Assembly (NCBI RefSeq): GCF_000443995.1
Contig: NZ_AUMC01000006.1
Span: forward strand, 372,001-436,000
Source of the DNA: Bacteriovorax sp. BAL6_X
GTDB lineage: Bacteria; Bdellovibrionota; Bacteriovoracia; Bacteriovoracales; Bacteriovoracaceae
Direction: 5' to 3'
DNA: 64,000 bases
Of this stretch, positions 118-12,617 are shown in pieces (position 1 is the stretch's first letter; each line of letters begins with the position of its first letter). The position numbers were made by a program, and so were the translations under genes. The notes under the pieces are model-generated. The model was not told where the DNA came from. It saw only the letters and a list, made by a program, of their open reading frames with translations, and ran no database searches.

Positions 118-735
118 TTACATTTCTTCTACTTGATCTTTCTTCCAAGTACGTAATCCCCAGATGAAAAAACCAATTAAGAAGAATGCAGATGGTGCAA
201 GAAGTGCCATACCATTAGTTTGGTACCAACCGCCTTCTCCAGTTGTTGCTAAAATAGATATTCCAAAAAGTTTTCCTGATCCAAGTAGCTCTCTGAAAAA
301 TCCAACAAATACTAGTACGAGTGAATAACCAATTCCGTTACCAATACCATCAAAGAATGACATGATTGGAGGGTTTTTCATCGCGTATGCTTCAGCACGA
401 CCCATAACAATACAGTTCGTGATGATTAGACCGATATATACCGACATCGACTTAGCAACGTCGTAAACATATGCCTTAAGAACCTGATCTGTCACGATTA
501 CAAGTGAAGCAATAATTGTCATCATAACGATGATACGAATTGCACTTGGAACGTGGTTTCTAATTAAAGAAACAAAAAGATTTGAAAAGGCACAAACAAC
601 AGTTACCGCTAGGCACATAACTGCTACTGATTCCATCTTTGTTGTAACCGCAAGAGCTGAACAAATCCCAAGGATCTGAAGTGCAATTGGATTATTTTCA
701 AATAATGGTGAAATGACTGTTTCTTTAAAGTTCAC
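118..735 (-). CDS. nqrD: Na+-translocating NADH:quinone reductase subunit D
   Basis: A 205-residue inner-membrane subunit of the Na+-NQR complex, which oxidises NADH, reduces ubiquinone and pumps Na+ outward. The sequence is almost entirely hydrophobic with about six membrane helices. It carries the family landmark [10 protein letters not shown] near residue 107 and [10 protein letters not shown] near residue 132, as in NqrD/RnfE proteins. The start is GTG, preceded by a strong GGAGGTG ribosome site; it overlaps the end of nqrC by 11 bases, so the two are translationally coupled. Length is normal for NqrD. RnfE is the only close alternative and is excluded by the nqrA, nqrB and nqrC neighbours. 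Confidence 0.95.
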
Positions 736-1510
736 TTTTCACCTCCACATCTTGAGTGTATTTATCAATGAAAGGTCCAAATGCATCGTCACCCATCCAG
801 TAGCGAACAGTTCCTGTTACACCATTAGCTGTAAGAGTTGCACCTGAAAGACCATCGATATCAAAGTTACTCGCATCACGTGCTTCACCTTTGATAACTT
901 GAATCTGAGGATTCCCATTTTCTCCAAAGATCTTCTTACCTGGCCATACTGATCTCCACTGAGGGTTATCAATCTCACCACCAAGACCTGGAGTTTCACC
1001 GTGAGAGTAGAACCCAATACCTTTTACAGTATTAAGATCTGTCTCAAGAACTAGGAAACCGTACATTGTTGACCAAAGACCTTTACCGTGGATTGGAAAA
1101 ACAACAGACTTAGTCTCTTCACCATCTTTTACAAAGAAAACTTTCGAATACTTTGCACGGAACTTAATTCCCGCCTTATCTTCTTTGGCAGGAATTGAAT
1201 AATTCATCTTTGAATCTTTAGCTGCTTTAACAGCATCGTAAGAAGCAACATCAATATCAGTTACATAATCACCAGTCTTAAGGTCGACTAGCTTTTCTTC
1301 GATTTGTTTATACGCATCTAAAATCTCTTTCTTTTGAGCTGTTGCTTTTACAAGACCAGCAGTCATCAGAAGATTTTTCTTAACATCTAAAACTTTATTC
1401 TCATCTTGAAGTGGCTTCAATGAAACCGCTGACCAAGATACGACAACTGAACAAACAACACATAGGATTGTTGCTACGATCAGAGTTTTTGCAGTACTAT
1501 CATTACTCAT
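725..1510 (-). CDS. nqrC: Na+-translocating NADH:quinone reductase subunit C
   Basis: This subunit carries covalent FMN in the periplasmic part of Na+-NQR. One N-terminal membrane helix is followed by a soluble domain. The flavinylation motif GLSGATLT is present; its threonine is residue 225 when counted from the start chosen here, the same number known for Vibrio cholerae NqrC. I place the start at 1510 ([10 protein letters not shown]) rather than at an in-frame ATG 24 codons upstream. This start has an AAGGGGGCAG ribosome site and gives the family length of about 261 residues, whereas the longer version would overlap nqrB. It sits 10 bases after the nqrB stop. Confidence 0.96.
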
Positions 1511-1520
1511 CACTGCCCCC

Positions 1521-2720
1521 TTAAACCGTTTTATATCCATTTGCACGTTTTTTGATATTTCCTTGAATAACAAAGTAATCAATTAAAGGTGCAAAACAGT
1601 TTCCGAAAAGGATTGCAAGCATAGTACCTTCTGGGAAAGCTGGGTTAATAACACGAACAAGAATAACCATGAAACCGATTAAAGCACCATAGAACCAGTG
1701 TCCTTTGTGTGTCATAGAAGCTGATACTGGATCAGTTGCCATAAACACTGTACCGAAAGCAAAACCACCAATCACTAAGTGCCAAAGTGGAGTTACAGAG
1801 AACATCATATTTGTATCAGAACCGATAGCATTTAGAATTGCCGAAGTAACAACAGCTCCAAGAACCATCGAAAGCATAATTCTCCAAGATCCAATACCTG
1901 AGATGATTAGAACCGCTGCTCCGATTAAACAAGCAAGAGCAGAAGTCTCACCCATTGAACCAGGCATAAACCCTAAAAATGCATCTTGCATTGAAGTTGT
2001 GATTGCTCCAACACCGCCAAGTGCAGCTTGAGAAAGAGCAGTTGCACCAGTGAAACCATCAACAGCAGTCCAAACTGCATCTCCCGAAATTTGTGCAGGA
2101 TAAGCAAAGAAAAGGAAAGCACGAGCAGTTAGTGCAGGGTTAAGGAAGTTCTTCCCAGTCCCACCGAAAACCTCTTTACCGATAAGAACACCGAAAGAGA
2201 TCCCTACAGCTACTTGCCATAGAGGGATTGTCGGAGGAAGAGTTAGTGGGAAAAGCATCCCAGTAACAAGAAAACCTTCATTAATTTCGTGACCACGTAC
2301 GATCGCAAAAAGAGCTTCCCAGAAGCCTCCAGCAATTTGTGTCACTAGAAAGATTGGGAAGAAATAAAGGAATCCATGCAGAAGGTTTGCTACTAGGCTA
2401 TCTGGAGAGAAGCCTGCACCAAGTGCTAAGATGATATCAGCACGCCAACCTTCTGGAGTCATACCAGCTGCAGCTAGAGCTGAGTTGGCCTGAAAACCAG
2501 TATTGTACATTGCCATAAACATTGCTGGAATAAGAGCAATAGCAACAGTGATCATTAATCTTTTTAAGTCAAGTGCATCTCTAACATGAACTGAACCTCT
2601 CGCCACTCCACCTGGAGTATAAAGGAAAGTATCGATCATTTCATAAACAGCATAAAACTTTTCGAATTTCCCGCCTTTGGCGAAGTTATCATGTTGAGAA
2701 TCTAGAAGTTTGCGCAACAT
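1521..2720 (-). CDS. nqrB: Na+-translocating NADH:quinone reductase subunit B
   Basis: A 399-residue membrane subunit of Na+-NQR that binds covalent FMN and riboflavin and forms part of the Na+ path. About ten hydrophobic helices follow a soluble N-terminus of roughly 50 residues. The FMN-attachment motif [10 protein letters not shown] is clear, with the modified threonine at residue 227 (Thr236 in Vibrio). Motifs such as [14 protein letters not shown] and [12 protein letters not shown] are typical of the NqrB/RnfD family. The ATG is preceded by AAGGATAA and lies five bases from the nqrA stop, consistent with one operon. Confidence 0.97.
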
Positions 2721-2725
2721 TGTAA

Positions 2726-4069
2726 TTATCCTTCTTTCTCAATAGTAGTTAAACTTTCTCTTAGAGCTGGACCGAAATCAACTTTACCAGGGCTTACGAA
2801 AGTACAAAGCGCTAAATCTTCTTCATCTAGCTCTAGACAACCTAGCTCGATTGCATAGTCATCATCTTTCGTTACAAGTGCTCTTAAAAGTTGAGTTGGT
2901 AGCATATCAAGAGGCATTACTTTTTCATATGACCCAACTGGAACCATAGCTCTATCAGAACCGTGAGTAGCAGTTGTGAAATCGAAAATCTGTCCTGGCT
3001 TTAACCAGTGTAAGAAAGTACGCTTAACAGAAAATTTATTAAGGCCTGGCTTATGCCATCCTAAGAACTCTCTTTCACGTCCTTCAGTAAGTAGAGAAAT
3101 TTGGTTATGGAAACGTCCTAGGTAAGAAAAAGTTCCAACCATTGCACGTCCACTGAAAACAGAACCTGAAACAACTCTCACCTCACCTTGTCCAACTTTA
3201 CCAGAAGTAACTTCACCTAAATGAGCTCCTGGAACAGTTTTAACAAGTGTTGGGTTTACAGATGCTGGACCTGCAATTGAGATAATTCTTTCTGTTGATA
3301 ATTCTCCAGTAGCAAAAAGTTTACCAATAGCAATTACGTCTTGGTAATTGATTGACCATACAATCTTATTTGCATTTACAGGATCAATAAAGTGAATGTG
3401 AGTTCCTGCGTTTCCTGCAGGGTGAACACCTGAGAATTCCTTTGTTTCAACTTTAGTTGTTGAAGGCGTTGGAATATTTGCACCAGCTGCCTTACAAACA
3501 AAAGTTCTTCCGTCAGTCAGCTTTGAGATTACCTCAACACCGTTTACGAAATCTTCGCTTGCTTCAGCAATTACTACTGCTGGATCAGCTGCAAGTGGAT
3601 TTGTATCCATTGCTGTTACGAAAATCGAATGTGGCTCAGAAGCTAAAGCTGGTGCTTTAGAAAATGGCCTTGTTCTGAAAGTAGGCCATAGACCTGATTC
3701 AACGAGAAGAGCTTGAACATCTTCTTTTGCTAAATCTTTTACTCCCGTGCCTTTGTAGTTTTCAAATGTAACTTGCTCGTTACCTGAAACTTCAATTACT
3801 AAAGTTTCAAACGCTCTTCTTGCACCACGGTTAATTTCAATAACCTTTCCGCTGATAGGTGCTGTATAAAGAACACCCTCAACTTTCTTACAAGAAAATA
3901 ACGCCTGACCTTTTTTAACTTCGTCACCTACTTGAACAAGCATAGTTGGCTTCATTCCAACATAGTCTGGCCCAGTAAGAGCGACTTTAGTCACTTGAGG
4001 TCCTACCTCAATCTTTTGTGATGGCTTCCCACTGATAGGAAGATCCAATCCTCTCTTAATGTGAATCAT
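2726..4069 (-). CDS. nqrA: Na+-translocating NADH:quinone reductase subunit A
   Basis: A 447-residue cytoplasmic-side peripheral subunit of Na+-NQR linked to quinone binding. It opens with [15 protein letters not shown] and has the biotinyl/lipoyl-like hammerhead section (residues about 40-80, [19 protein letters not shown]). The C-terminal part contains [21 protein letters not shown], typical of NqrA. It is the first gene of the operon. The 160 bases upstream should hold the nqr promoter, but I see no convincing -35/-10 pair, and the ribosome site (GGGA, 9 bases from ATG) is modest. Confidence 0.96.
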
Positions 4070-7603: not shown

Positions 7604-8344
7604 ATGAGCTATTTTGGAAACAGCAATAAGGGAGAAAAGATCTTTCGCGGTGCATATAACTATTATCGCAAAGACAACCTCTATGCTGAAGAAACATTTG
7701 AAGTTTATCGCAGGCCCAAACTCCACCAAATCTACTTTGAAGGAGAGATGCTCGCACGAGTTATGACGGGAGAACTACTAAAGATCAACGTCGCTTACAC
7801 TGTTGATAAAGAATACACTCCTGTAAAAGTTCAAATCATAAAAAGTCTTGGGGAGCAAATATCTAAAGAGATATTCTTATTTGACCATTCAACTAGTGAA
7901 CTAAAATATCAATTTGAGTGTGATGGTGAAGTAAATCGAGAGTCTATTACAACATCCCCAAAATTCTACGTAACCACTCCACTAAGTTGCTGCAGTATGC
8001 TCTTTCTTTGGTCAAAGAAGTTTGATTCAGTTGGAAAAAACTACTACTCATTCTTTTCGACAAATAATCAATGGAAGTATGAGGGCCCAATTATCAATAA
8101 CAGTATAATTGTAGAACGAGCGGCCCAAACATCAGAATCAATAAAGATTGCGGGAACAACAGTTACAGCTGTTCAGTACAAATTATTTGAAAAGACAGAA
8201 TCAGAAGACAGTAAAGACTTAAAAGTCACACCAGATTTTCTAAACATCTGGCTCTCTCAGCATCAAACTATTCCATACATTATAAAAGACAAGCAAGGTA
8301 CTAATATTACTATTAAATATCTTAACAGCCTCGATCGCAGTTAA
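7604..8344 (+). CDS. Hypothetical protein, beta-rich, no signal peptide
   Basis: 246 residues with no recognised domain. No signal peptide or membrane helix is seen. The sequence alternates polar and aromatic residues in a way that suggests beta strands (KLHQIYFEGEMLARVMTGEL, and KYEGPIINNSIIVERA). A CC pair lies at about residue 127. The start follows a very AT-rich stretch and no clear Shine-Dalgarno sequence is visible. It stands alone between a divergent channel gene and a lipoprotein gene 75 bases downstream. I do not recognise the family. Confidence 0.65.
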   Translation: MSYFGNSNKGEKIFRGAYNYYRKDNLYAEETFEVYRRPKLHQIYFEGEMLARVMTGELLKINVAYTVDKEYTPVKVQIIKSLGEQISKEIFLFDHSTSELKYQFECDGEVNRESITTSPKFYVTTPLSCCSMLFLWSKKFDSVGKNYYSFFSTNNQWKYEGPIINNSIIVERAAQTSESIKIAGTTVTAVQYKLFEKTESEDSKDLKVTPDFLNIWLSQHQTIPYIIKDKQGTNITIKYLNSLDRS

Positions 8345-8419
8345 ACACATAAAAGCTTTAAAGTTAGTTTCCATAAAACATAAGAATAATTAACGTCAAA
8401 TAATGTATAAAATAGATAT

Positions 8420-8914
8420 ATGAGAAGTTATTTTTTTACATTTAAACTTTCTTTACTCCTAATCACATCTTCTTGTGCGAAAATTTCTATTAAAAGAAGT
8501 GATATAAGCAATAAGGGCCAGCTCCACCTTTCAAAGCAGCTCTCTCCTTTTATGTCAGATGGATGTTCAAAATGGCCGAATGGAACACTTGCAAATCCGG
8601 ACGCATGGCTTAAGTGTTGTTTTGTTCACGACCAACAGTATTGGCTGGGAGGTACGGAAGGCCAACGTTTTAATGCTGATCAACAATTAAAGGCCTGTGT
8701 AAAAGAAGAATTTACTGATTGGATGTCAATCATCATGTATTTAGGAGTTCGTATCGGAGGAGGGCCACAATACCAAACTTCCTACCGCTGGGGATATGGA
8801 TGGAACTATGACAGAGGTTATATCCCCCTAACTCAAGAGGAGATTGATTATGCCAAGACAATAGCTCCCAAAGAATTTGATGATATAAAAAAATACATAA
8901 GGAAGACAAAGTAA
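8420..8914 (+). CDS. Putative lipoprotein with phospholipase A2-like CC..HD motif
   Basis: 164 residues. The N-terminus is a signal sequence ending in SLLLITSSC, which could be a lipobox, although threonine at -3 is not classic. Residues about 50-95 contain DGCSKWPNG, then WLKCCFVHDQQYWLGG and FNADQQLKACV. CCxxHD is the catalytic His-Asp core of secreted phospholipase A2, and the further cysteines could form the usual disulfides. The Ca2+-binding loop is not obvious, so enzyme activity is inferred only. The stop overlaps the ATG of the next gene (TAATG), suggesting the two act together in the outer membrane. Confidence 0.65.
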   Translation: MRSYFFTFKLSLLLITSSCAKISIKRSDISNKGQLHLSKQLSPFMSDGCSKWPNGTLANPDAWLKCCFVHDQQYWLGGTEGQRFNADQQLKACVKEEFTDWMSIIMYLGVRIGGGPQYQTSYRWGYGWNYDRGYIPLTQEEIDYAKTIAPKEFDDIKKYIRKTK

Positions 8915-9711
8915 TGAAGAGCAAATTACATCTAATTATTCTTCTTATTCCCTTATTCACAATTGCCCAAGAGATGCCAATGAATCGAGTTAGCGAGGAG
9001 AAACCACGCTATTTTCCAATCTGGGGAGATGAGGCAAAAAAGCGAGGCTACACTCTTCCTCGTCCCTATGGAGTTAATATTTCAAGAGTAGAACATGATG
9101 AAAGATTTGGTGTAAAAAATGCGACTTTAAATGGTGAAGACCTATTTGAAGCTCTTCCAGTGACTGGAGATGTAAAGGTCGATACTGAAACAAAAATAAA
9201 TATGATTCGAACTGATTTTTGGCTACTACCATTCTTCAACTTATATCTTGGTTTGGGTCAAATTCACTCCAATATAAAACTTGAATTTAAAACACAAAGG
9301 CCCATAGTCGGTAGCCAACAACACAATATCCCGTTTAAAGCAAGTGGAACTGTCGCAAACCTTGGAGGAGTCCTAGTTGCTGGTTACAATAGCTGGTTTG
9401 TCATGACTAATTTTAACTTAACCGATGTAATCATTGAAAACGAGCTTGATGTAAATCTGTACAGTATTGCATTTAGAGGCGGATATAACGCTGGAAAGCT
9501 TCAAATTTTTACAGGCGCAATGTATATAGACAGCAATATTCAAATCACCGGCTCACGCCAAGATATTGTACTTAACGTAAGCCTTTCATCTAGTGGTTGG
9601 CATGGACTTGCTGGCCTAAACTATGAGATTAACCGTGAGTTTGGACTAACAACAGAACTAAGCTTCGGTGAGCGTTATATGTACCTACTCGAGTTTGGAT
9701 ATCGATTCTAA
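8914..9711 (+). CDS. Putative outer-membrane beta-barrel protein
   Basis: 265 residues. It has a signal peptide (LHLIILLIPLFTIAQ, cleavage near residue 19), then many alternating hydrophobic/polar stretches suggestive of transmembrane beta strands. It ends with an aromatic residue in MYLLEFGYRF, as is usual for barrels inserted by BAM. No named family is recognised. It is translationally coupled to the PLA2-like lipoprotein gene (TAATG overlap). Its stop overlaps by a few bases with the stop of the convergent helicase gene, leaving no room for a separate terminator. Confidence 0.65.
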   Translation: MKSKLHLIILLIPLFTIAQEMPMNRVSEEKPRYFPIWGDEAKKRGYTLPRPYGVNISRVEHDERFGVKNATLNGEDLFEALPVTGDVKVDTETKINMIRTDFWLLPFFNLYLGLGQIHSNIKLEFKTQRPIVGSQQHNIPFKASGTVANLGGVLVAGYNSWFVMTNFNLTDVIIENELDVNLYSIAFRGGYNAGKLQIFTGAMYIDSNIQITGSRQDIVLNVSLSSSGWHGLAGLNYEINREFGLTTELSFGERYMYLLEFGYRF

Positions 9712-12617
9712 TCCAGAGTATTCACAAAATCTTTAGAGGCCTCTAAAGCTTCTTTAAAATTTGTGCGATGGATTTGGTACGGCTCCATCTGTTTTGTAAG
9801 CTTTGCCATTGTAGAATTCTTCCACTTTTTCACACGTGAATCAATGACAACGACAGCACCTGCATCGGTCTCTGTTCTAAGTAGTCTTCCAAGTTTTTGA
9901 TGTAAATTTCTTGTTCTATGGGCAAGGTAGTAGTCTTCAAATTCGTTACCAATATTTGTCTCATAATATTCGCGACGAAGTCGAATAACTTGTTCCATAG
10001 AAAGGTCAGGAATTTTATCAATAAAGACAAATCTCAAGGCATCACCAGGAACATCAATCCCCTCGCCAAAAGATTCCATTCCAATCAAAATTCCGTTTCC
10101 ACTATCTTTAAACTCTTCAACTACATTGGCGCCCATACCTTGAACAAATACAGGGAGCTTGCCTTCAAATTTATCAAGCATATACTCCACGGCCTTTTCA
10201 AATCGAGCACGTGCTGAAAATAATAACAAACTTCTACCATCAATATCTTCAATAAATGGAGTTAAGCGATCACAAATTGTTTTTACAAAGTCCTTATCAT
10301 AAAGAGACGGAGTATCATCACATAAGAATACCTTCGTACGATTCTTATAATCATAGACAGAAGGTAAATAGAGCCCTGTTCTAAAGCGTCTTTCAGGTTC
10401 GCTATAAAGGTAACCTGTCGACCACTCCATCCCGCGACTACCTTGATCTCCGTGTTCATTTCCTAGCGTTGCAGAAGTGTAAACAACCGATGAAGAAGTT
10501 TGCAGAAGTTGGTCATGTAAGATGCGTCCAGTATTAATTGGTCCTGCACTTAGTAAGAATCCTTGCTGTTCATGATATTTCATCGAAAGAGAATGAGGCT
10601 GAGAAGAACTTTCAATCTTTAATAAAACGGAAAGTGCATTCATCACATCTTCAAGCTGTCCCACAAATGCCTCAAAACGTGTCCAGGCCGTAATTTCACC
10701 TTGGCCTTGCATATCACTTACCTGCCAGCGAATCGTATAAGGGTACAACCTTTCATGAACAGACTTTAGAAGATAGAAAATACTCTCCAGATGGTGGAAG
10801 ACACTTAGGCGAAGTGCTTCTTTTTCTGTTGGCATAATCATTGGAAGTTCATTCCAGAACTTATCTGTATAGCGAGGCATCTTTTTAAAGATCATCTCAA
10901 ACTTCTCAGGAAGTTCGAATAAGTGATCCCTAAGCATTGAGGCCGTATCAATCGATAACATACGAAGAGAAGAAATCTCTTCTTCTTGATTCTCATCAAT
11001 CATCGTATTGATTAAATAGAAAAGAGAACCTAAACCTTGTAGGTTTTGGAATTGCTTATGAAGGCTTTCAAGATCACTTTGTGCAACTTCAGCAGAGAAA
11101 GCTTTTGTCGCCTCACCTTCAATTTTATGGGCTTCGTCTACCACGACATAGGCAGGTCTTGGAAAAGACTTTGTCCAAGAAAACATCAGTGCATGGTTTC
11201 CAATAATAATATCGGCTTCCTTTGCATCTCTTAAACCTCGAATATAAGTACAATTGGCGTAGAATGGACACTGCTTACTTGAACAAGCACGGTAGTCTAC
11301 GGCCAAGTCTTTTTGAGCTTGTGAAAAATTTTCAAGCTTCATGCGAAGAACAAATGGAAGATCATCTTTAGAGATCATATGCTCAAGAGCACTATTTGAG
11401 TTGTGATAAAAAAGAGATTCAAAGTAGATATCTGAAAACTTATCTTTTAATTCACTACTTTGTGAAAAAAGATCTTCTTCATTTTGTCTTTGGGTGAAAA
11501 GAAGCTCACAAAAGTGGTTACTTGAGCCAACAAGCTGACGAATCTTTAAGTCCTTAGGAGAGACACCTAAGAGCTTATGAAGAGCTGGTACATCCTTATT
11601 CATGGCCTGTGCCTGAAGAGTCTTTGTTCCCGTGGCAACAAGAACTTGCTTTTGTTCACTTAGAGCAAATAAAGCACTTGGTACTAAGTAACCAAGGGTC
11701 TTCCCTGTCCCTGTTGGGGCCTGAACCATTGAGTGAATGTGATTCTTAAAAGACTGACCAACTTTAAGGGCCAAATCTTCTTGTGATTTACGGTATCGGT
11801 AGCCATTAAATAGAGTCGAAACCTTTTCTTCATTACTGAAGATATTCTTCACATTCTGACCATTAAAGGTCATATCAAAATTTTGTTCATATACCTGCTT
11901 ATCTTCAAGTGTCTTTGGGTAGGCCCATTCTAATGCCATTTCAATATGAGCTGTCGGTTCAAAATCAATTTGCTCAGATATTTCAAATAACTCTTCTTCA
12001 TAAAGACATAAAAACCTAAAGAACCAATAGTCTTGAAGAGAGTATTTATGCATTAAAGACATCATGAAGTTATACTTTCCAGCATCCTTCTTTGTCATCA
12101 GAGCAGCAACAATGACAACCTTTAGAAGGTCCACTGAATCCTGGAAGCCTCTGTGTAATTCCTTCTCGGCCAAACCAAAGCCAACAATAAAGTTTTCAAG
12201 CTTCAGTGAAGACATATGTGGGAAAAGAAGTGATAAGAAGTACAGAGAGTCTTGCCAACGATGGCCTTCTCTAAAGTCCAAAGTCTCAAAATGATGGTCT
12301 AAGAAGCCGGCTTCAAAATCAGCGTTATGAGCGAGAATGTCATGGCCATCTAACTCTAGAACTTCACCAATGACATCATCTAAAAGCGGGGCACGTTTTA
12401 GCATCTTATTATCAATACCAGTTAGCTTTTGGATGAATTTAGAAATTTCAAAACTTGGGCGACACAGAGATTCATATTTATGAACAAGTTTAGTTCCTTC
12501 AAATTGAAGAAAACCAACATCAATTATTTCATCAACACTGCAATCTGCCCCCGTTGTTTCAATATCAAGAAGTGCCCATTTGCCTAGTGTGTTATTATCT
12601 GTATTCATCGTATCCAT
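9708..12617 (-). CDS. dinG: DnaQ-type exonuclease fused to DinG-family helicase
   Basis: 969 residues with two enzymes in one chain. Residues about 10-175 are a DEDDh 3'-5' exonuclease: DIETTG (Exo I), HNADFEAGFL (Exo II) and HRGFQDSVDLL (Exo III). The rest is an XPD/DinG-type superfamily 2 DNA helicase with Walker A APTGTGKT near residue 296 and DEAH near residue 496. It also has cysteines (CSSKQCPFYANC and an upstream NHFC) placed like the 4Fe-4S cluster ligands of XPD-type helicases, and a C-terminal HRTRNLHQKLGRLLR motif VI. Such fusions resemble the Gram-positive DinG/YpvA form, where the nuclease domain is N-terminal. Role: DNA repair and resolution of unusual structures. A second in-frame ATG lies three codons in. 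Confidence 0.93.
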   Translation of the reverse strand: MDTMNTDNNTLGKWALLDIETTGADCSVDEIIDVGFLQFEGTKLVHKYESLCRPSFEISKFIQKLTGIDNKMLKRAPLLDDVIGEVLELDGHDILAHNADFEAGFLDHHFETLDFREGHRWQDSLYFLSLLFPHMSSLKLENFIVGFGLAEKELHRGFQDSVDLLKVVIVAALMTKKDAGKYNFMMSLMHKYSLQDYWFFRFLCLYEEELFEISEQIDFEPTAHIEMALEWAYPKTLEDKQVYEQNFDMTFNGQNVKNIFSNEEKVSTLFNGYRYRKSQEDLALKVGQSFKNHIHSMVQAPTGTGKTLGYLVPSALFALSEQKQVLVATGTKTLQAQAMNKDVPALHKLLGVSPKDLKIRQLVGSSNHFCELLFTQRQNEEDLFSQSSELKDKFSDIYFESLFYHNSNSALEHMISKDDLPFVLRMKLENFSQAQKDLAVDYRACSSKQCPFYANCTYIRGLRDAKEADIIIGNHALMFSWTKSFPRPAYVVVDEAHKIEGEATKAFSAEVAQSDLESLHKQFQNLQGLGSLFYLINTMIDENQEEEISSLRMLSIDTASMLRDHLFELPEKFEMIFKKMPRYTDKFWNELPMIMPTEKEALRLSVFHHLESIFYLLKSVHERLYPYTIRWQVSDMQGQGEITAWTRFEAFVGQLEDVMNALSVLLKIESSSQPHSLSMKYHEQQGFLLSAGPINTGRILHDQLLQTSSSVVYTSATLGNEHGDQGSRGMEWSTGYLYSEPERRFRTGLYLPSVYDYKNRTKVFLCDDTPSLYDKDFVKTICDRLTPFIEDIDGRSLLLFSARARFEKAVEYMLDKFEGKLPVFVQGMGANVVEEFKDSGNGILIGMESFGEGIDVPGDALRFVFIDKIPDLSMEQVIRLRREYYETNIGNEFEDYYLAHRTRNLHQKLGRLLRTETDAGAVVVIDSRVKKWKNSTMAKLTKQMEPYQIHRTNFKEALEASKDFVNTLD

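Follow-up and report, generated by a model that had tools for sequence, protein, structure and literature searches.

Does a small lipoprotein gene of Bacteriovorax sp. BAL6_X that carries the motif CCFVHD encode a phospholipase A2 (PLA2), and does its product act together with the putative outer-membrane barrel protein encoded directly behind it? The two genes lie in a stretch of 64,000 nucleotides (contig NZ_AUMC01000006.1, positions 372,001 to 436,000, forward strand), referred to as the window, whose own numbering is used throughout. A first, sequence-only reading of the window had taken the lipoprotein for a secreted PLA2 that is translationally coupled to an outer-membrane partner and suited to predation. 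The open reading frame (ORF) coordinates and the motif given there are correct: the lipoprotein gene spans positions 8420–8914 on the plus strand, encodes 164 residues and matches PLA2s by family profile and by predicted structure. Based on sequence and structural modelling, we consider it likely that the product is an exported, membrane-anchored, Ca2+-dependent PLA2.

Sequence relationship to phospholipases A2

Two alignments of relatives were used as profiles. The 30-row alignment holds 30 of 31 loci from the order Bacteriovoracales, namely the window protein and L002–L031 minus L022, which runs off its contig. The 90-row alignment holds the window protein and 89 relatives out of 106 candidates picked by script for the patterns CCxxHDxxY and DxC[ST], with truncated, near-identical and mis-started rows left out; invariance at the positions of these patterns is partly by construction in this alignment. 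Searched against 177,635 PDB sequences, the 90-row profile returned five matches up to E 10: four PLA2s at the top (8k1w, 5.9e-5; 4aup, 0.0011; 7ygk, 0.049; 1faz, 0.18) and, in fifth place, an unrelated protein (0.29). The 30-row profile returned two matches up to the same limit, both of them PLA2s (0.069 and 0.64). The four structures represent group XIV here: the Streptomyces violaceoruber PLA2 (1faz), Tuber borchii TbSP1 (4aup) and the actinobacterial 7ygk and 8k1w. TbSP1 is placed in group XIII in its PDB entry and in group XIV in PMC11525133.

In a Pfam search with the 90 family members, 37 touched the prokaryotic PLA2 model PF09056, 27 touched PLA2G12 (PF06951, best 0.0077), 17 touched DUF1353 (PF07087, best 8.3e-5) and three the classical PLA2 model. 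The other weak matches were to unrelated families, most commonly Metal_resist (10/90), and no NCBIfam model was matched by any of the 90 members at E 0.01. The window protein reached none of the curated cut-offs: for PF09056 (29.4 bits) it had no match at E 10 and its genome none at E 0.1, for PF07087 (22.5 bits) it had no match, and for PF06951 (34 bits) it had no match. Among the relatives, L069 scored 13.1 bits against PF07087, and the best of the 17 matches to that model (8.3e-5) may come close to its cut-off. When the family was aligned with hhalign to five proteins of a second family in the same order, all of which exceed the PF09056 cut-off, a probability of 95.2 and an E-value of 2.8e-8 were obtained over 71 columns.

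Predicted structure

For the mature lipoprotein, AlphaFold with the 90-row alignment as input gave a model with a mean predicted local distance difference test (pLDDT) score of 84.6 and a predicted template modelling (pTM) score of 0.78. The top three chains in VIA-align were all PLA2s, namely 4aup (Z 6.8; 77 residues, 3.9 Å), 7ygk (Z 6.2; 73 residues, 2.7 Å) and 8k1w (Z 6.2; 83 residues, 4.2 Å), followed by an unrelated chain at Z 4.4. Foldseek ranked the Sciscionella PLA2 7ygk first in the PDB with a probability of 0.89. In the viral library, its first match (E 0.0025) was unnamed, and the next ones, with weak E-values, were a phage protein named phospholipase A2, a DUF1353 protein and densovirus VP1 proteins. 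On these modest scores the model appears to contain the PLA2 core fold, and the scores count because the independent sequence profile agrees with them.

Predicted active site and residue conservation

Conservation was counted without a residue filter in 149 loci, some of which are the same gene from two collections; 134 distinct relatives were left after removing identical domains. These comprise 31 viral relatives found by the pattern CCxxHDxxYW, in which CC, HD, Y and W are given by construction, 73 genome-contig relatives found by a C-terminal tail pattern and 30 relatives from the order found by whole-protein search. The HMMER alignment to Streptomyces 1faz, counted from its printed rows, places D47, G48, C49, C67, H70, D71 and D87 of the window protein on D43, L44, C45, C61, H64, D65 and D85, of which we take D43, L44 and D65 to be the calcium ligands of 1faz.

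The motif CCFVHD (residues 66–71; 8615–8632, plus strand) comprises C66, C67, the predicted catalytic H70 and the predicted calcium ligand D71. All four residues are present in 134/134 distinct relatives, and in 103/103 of those not chosen by that pattern. D87 (8678–8680, plus strand), the putative partner Asp of the catalytic dyad, lies outside the search patterns given here and is likewise found in 134/134. As far as sequence can tell, the catalytic His-Asp of secreted PLA2s and the distal dyad Asp are both in place, and the identification of CCFVHD as a PLA2 catalytic core was borne out by family profile, structure and conservation. For group XIV enzymes, PMC11525133 describes a common His/Asp catalytic dyad and an important Asp beside the His.

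The predicted calcium site D47-G48-C49 (8558–8566, plus strand) aligns in HMMER with the DGC of 8k1w and 4aup, within their DGCS, as well as with D43-L44-C45 of 1faz. Of the 133 distinct relatives that are readable at position 47, 132 have Asp and one (L116) has Glu; C49 is found in 133/133 and C93 in 126/126 readable ones. These residues point to a calcium site of the bacterial and fungal Asp-x-Cys type. The earlier remark that the calcium loop is not visible holds insofar as the loop looks unlike that of the venom and pancreatic enzymes, but it overlooked the Asp-x-Cys alternative. The double Cys resembles PLA2 groups I and II and differs from the single Cys of 1faz, so that disulfides C49–C67 and C66–C93 are likely. 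Further downstream, the family has a C-terminal motif, RWGYGWxxxRGY (residues 123–134; 8786–8821, plus strand). W124 and G127 occur in 30/30 relatives from the order and in 15/15 readable viral ones (16 of the 31 were unreadable there); their presence in 73/73 genome-contig relatives is by construction, as that scan used the C-terminal motif.

In the mechanism we propose, the side chain of D47, the carbonyl of G48 and D71 would coordinate Ca2+, and H70, supported by D87, would activate water. The sn-2 ester of a phospholipid would then be cut, with a fatty acid and a lysophospholipid as products.

Predicted export signal and lipid anchor

By pattern, the N-terminus qualifies as that of a bacterial lipoprotein, with a signal peptide (8420–8476, plus strand), a lipobox-like TSSC at residues 16–19 and, as residue +1, Cys19 (8474–8476). 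The residue at +2 is Ala, which favours the outer membrane by the Lol +2 rule. A Cys stands in the Cys19 column in 18 of the 30 rows of the order alignment. Among the genome-contig relatives, a hydrophobic stretch ahead of the PLA2-like domain was found in all 73 scored loci (73 of 80 were scorable). Cys19 is presumably acylated and would tether the mature domain to a membrane, with the outer membrane as the likeliest place.

Strength of the assignment and competing interpretations of the fold

Several observations weigh against a lipid-anchored PLA2. Searched on its own, the window lipoprotein had no hit up to E 10 in Pfam, in NCBIfam or among PDB sequences, and the PF09056 matches of its family are weak (best 1.5e-4 in the 30-row and 5.2e-4 in the 90-row set). 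The best Foldseek match in the PDB has an E-value of 0.28, Foldseek against viral models returned nothing at E 0.001, and a VIA-align Z below 8 may, by the tool's own warning, reflect a common arrangement. As to the anchor, Thr is not the commonest residue at lipobox position −3, and a lipobox-like stretch is present in 23 of the 73 scored genome-contig relatives, so that lipid anchoring is not a family-wide trait. We also found no activity data for the PLA2-like family.

That the single sequence matches no known family would suit a CCxxHD motif arisen by chance in an unrelated secreted protein. The results on profile, fold and conservation contradict this, and the 90-row profile, VIA-align and the conservation in 134 distinct relatives in effect refute it, leaving it a negligible probability. 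A PLA2-fold protein that does not hydrolyse phospholipids, serving instead as a binding or structural module, deserves more weight, since inactive PLA2-fold proteins exist and no assay of the family came to light. On the other hand, the calcium-ligand and dyad residues are kept in 132 to 134 of 134 distinct relatives, and the assayed distant relative TtaP is active; we regard this interpretation as quite improbable.

Position among known phospholipase A2 systems

The likeness is closest to the secreted PLA2s of group XIV and PF09056, which share the Asp-x-Cys-Ser calcium site, the His-Asp and the distal Asp and which gave the best sequence and structure matches. The family differs from 1faz in having CC instead of AC ahead of xxHD, and from group XIV in the YWxGG after the HD motif, the RWGYGW tail and, in the clade of the window, the lipobox. 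According to PMC11525133, the DUF1353 protein TtaP, which is distantly homologous to group XIV, was shown by assay to be a PLA2, lost its activity when the dyad Asp was changed and is regarded by its authors as a novel PLA2 class. Like our family, the DUF1353/TtaP class (PF07087) is made up of small proteins from bacteria and phages that have this dyad (PMC11525133), whereas the window protein has a signal and conserved Cys residues. A third likeness is to the Tox-PLA2 domains of polymorphic toxins, for which a 2012 survey (PMC3482391) gives the motif DxC[ST], CxxHxxxYxN and an assignment to the PLA2 fold (PDB 1kp4). DGCS and CFVHDQQY of the window protein fit this motif; in contrast, its Asn is not kept (L76 in the window protein), and the window protein is stand-alone and, by prediction, exported.

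By its sequence, the family would stand between the group XIV and DUF1353 PLA2s, with a PLA2 active site that appears intact. The fold and the chemistry are already known; what is new is a coherent subfamily with the YWxGG and RWGYGW motifs, predicted to be lipid-anchored in the clade of the window, and this subfamily has no name of its own in the versions of Pfam and NCBIfam that were searched. It did not appear in the portions of the literature covered here, which is not to claim that it is unpublished.

Distribution in bacterial genomes and phages

In order to gain insights into the spread of the family, genomes and contigs were searched at several levels. Of 129 genomes of the order, 72 had a match in a single-protein search (E 0.001), so that a predatory order gains a defined candidate lipase. 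None of the five other genomes of the genus, three of which are 73–87% complete, gave a PLA2-like match. The genome-contig scan yielded at least 372 relatives among 393 pattern matches. Judged by title, the 80 listed carriers belong largely to the Gammaproteobacteria and also to Bacteriovoracaceae, Thermodesulfobacteriota, Nitrospiria, Verrucomicrobiota and others. With at least 372 genome-contig loci and the phage members, one simple assay would help to annotate many genomes. Among the gene neighbours of the 80 listed loci (74 usable), the largest cluster spans six loci and no conserved partner was seen.

This distribution bears on whether the protein is a weapon of predation, that is, a lipase displayed by a coupled barrel protein that opens prey membranes. 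A profile search (E 1e-5) found the family in 100 of 290 genomes of the phylum, compared with 15 of 185 genomes of unstated completeness, seed included, in the gammaproteobacterial class of an Amphritea genome. With seeds left out, the odds ratio is 6.3 (p 4.7e-12), uncorrected for kinship and with 60 of the 100 genomes in the window's own family. PMC12827227 also reports a Bacteriovorax strain that encodes a phospholipase A2, of a protein family not given there, among hydrolases that may shape prey range. The missing matches in the five congeners speak against the idea, as do many of the listed carriers, which belong to genera not known as predators, such as Shewanella, Pseudoalteromonas and Microbulbifer. 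As non-predators carry the family, a part in predation is possible and not demonstrated, and the predatory role first suggested for the lipoprotein was not supported. The role that we put forward tentatively is the digestion of lipids, either extracellularly or within the envelope, with prey lipids included and not the sole target.

Housekeeping of the cell's own outer membrane, with the lipoprotein taking the place of outer membrane phospholipase A (PldA), was weighed as another role. PldA (PF02253) is a barrel enzyme of another fold; it is likewise an envelope phospholipase and also present in the window genome, but no Pfam match links it to the window protein. In favour of this role, the PLA2-like family is present in all five g16 genomes, including that of Halobacteriovorax marinus, and these five are all absent from the set of 53 PldA-positive genomes. 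Conversely, the window genome has PldA (E 2.5e-93), and co-occurrence of the two across 129 genomes is random (31 with both, 41 PLA2-like only, 22 PldA only, 35 neither; Fisher p 0.72). On both grounds, replacement of PldA was rejected for the window genome, and we consider the housekeeping role rather unlikely.

The family also extends to viruses. The viral-contig scan with the window protein alone found no relative, and the search with the 30-row alignment found 39 loci. In a phage collection, the window protein had no match at E 0.01; viral family members used as queries retrieved 1, 15 and 2 records. The PHROG match of the window protein is phrog_6098 (1.8e-11), of function unknown, which is also matched by seven other members scanned and by the paralogue L002 (1.6e-7). 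Unlike the window protein, the phage proteins of phrog_6098 are mostly about 90–130 residues long and, by eye, mostly lack a signal peptide.

Several further observations concern individual members. The paralogue L002 (1138–1941), from the window's own genome, shares 43% identity, has a signal-like start and no lipobox by pattern, and is longer by about 120 residues at its C-terminus. The phage members L156 (3456–3698, Mannheimia phage PHL101 ORF23), L157 and L158 are annotated as hypothetical. PHL101 ORF23 lies directly after a tail fibre gene, and a PLA2-like protein at such a site is of interest. Several members weakly match phrog_1158, which is labelled as tail assembly chaperone. A second PLA2-like family in the order (L159, 1444–1869; L160, 1306–1767; L161, L162 and L164) exceeds the PF09056 cut-off, and matches above it occur in 6 of 126 genomes, with L163 as one of them. 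Within the genus, one genome (G052) has a PF09056 match over the cut-off and another (G050) one under it (27.5 bits); the window genome has none.

The putative barrel gene and its probable insertion site

The gene behind the lipoprotein gene (8914–9711, plus strand) encodes a putative outer-membrane beta-barrel protein of 265 residues with an N-terminal hydrophobic stretch, a C-terminal Phe and sub-threshold Pfam matches to OMP_b-brl (0.084) and DUF6588 (0.0013). AlphaFold gave no usable model from the single sequence (pLDDT 28.9). The stop codon TAA of the PLA2-like gene (8912–8914) overlaps by one base with the ATG of the barrel gene (8914–8916), and a Shine-Dalgarno-like AGGAAG (8900–8905, plus strand) lies 8 nucleotides ahead of this ATG, inside the PLA2-like gene. 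The overlap makes the translational coupling claimed earlier plausible; with AGGAAG as its own site, the barrel gene could also be initiated independently.

Of 129 genomes of the order, four contain a relative of the barrel protein, the window genome among them. A search with the barrel protein and two longer relatives found none at any of 149 PLA2-like loci, whose flanking sequence extends over 1.5 or 3 kb at most. In one of the genomes with a barrel relative (G047), that gene (C9:431688) is separated by about 287 kb from the PLA2-like copy on its contig, and the closest PLA2-like gene lies on a different one (C16). Two others (G107 and G108) have a barrel relative and no PLA2-like match. The adjacency of the two genes thus looks private to this lineage, and the outer-membrane partner of the sequence-only reading finds no parallel in the 149 loci searched.

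Both genes fill a stretch (8345–9707) between a conserved upstream gene (7604–8344) and a gene at 9708–12617 that is presumably helicase-like. In three of the four same-genus genomes read (G048, G049 and G050) and in G003 of another genus, these flanking genes adjoin, with a gap of fewer than 30 bases or an overlap. In the fourth, G051 (L168, 1800–3434), other ORFs of 426 and 116 residues lie between the conserved and the helicase-like gene, and new genes may be gained preferentially at this site. A fifth congener (G052) gave no match to the upstream gene. It looks as if the gene pair was gained at one site in this lineage, perhaps together, and loss elsewhere is also possible. The one-base overlap and the common site are compatible with a joint function without demonstrating one; the barrel gene would have been acquired at this site as a neighbour, without being a dedicated partner.

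For a weapon displayed by the barrel protein, the single insertion site shared by both genes is a point in favour. The 149 loci without a barrel relative and the two genomes with a barrel relative but no PLA2-like match are points against, and together with the distribution of the family they render this weapon unlikely. Less probable by far is a broader proposal, in which a lipid-anchored group-XIV-like PLA2 and a dedicated displaying barrel were acquired together as a weapon module against the prey outer membrane and the phage members are envelope lipases at entry or lysis; we give it very little credence.

Sequence context of the locus

Promoter-like and terminator-like sites around the locus showed no excess over shuffles. 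Between 8200 and 9900, no direct repeats of at least 14 bases were found, and four weak inverted pairs are present. With a GC content of 0.376, compared with a mean of 0.365 and a standard deviation of 0.024, the two-gene stretch is unremarkable in base composition. The upstream gene (7604–8344) has no Pfam match and occurs in 32 of 58 genomes searched, its own included, with or without a PLA2-like gene. Further upstream, positions 118–4069 hold a run of minus-strand genes, which we take to encode subunits of a Na+-translocating NADH:quinone reductase.
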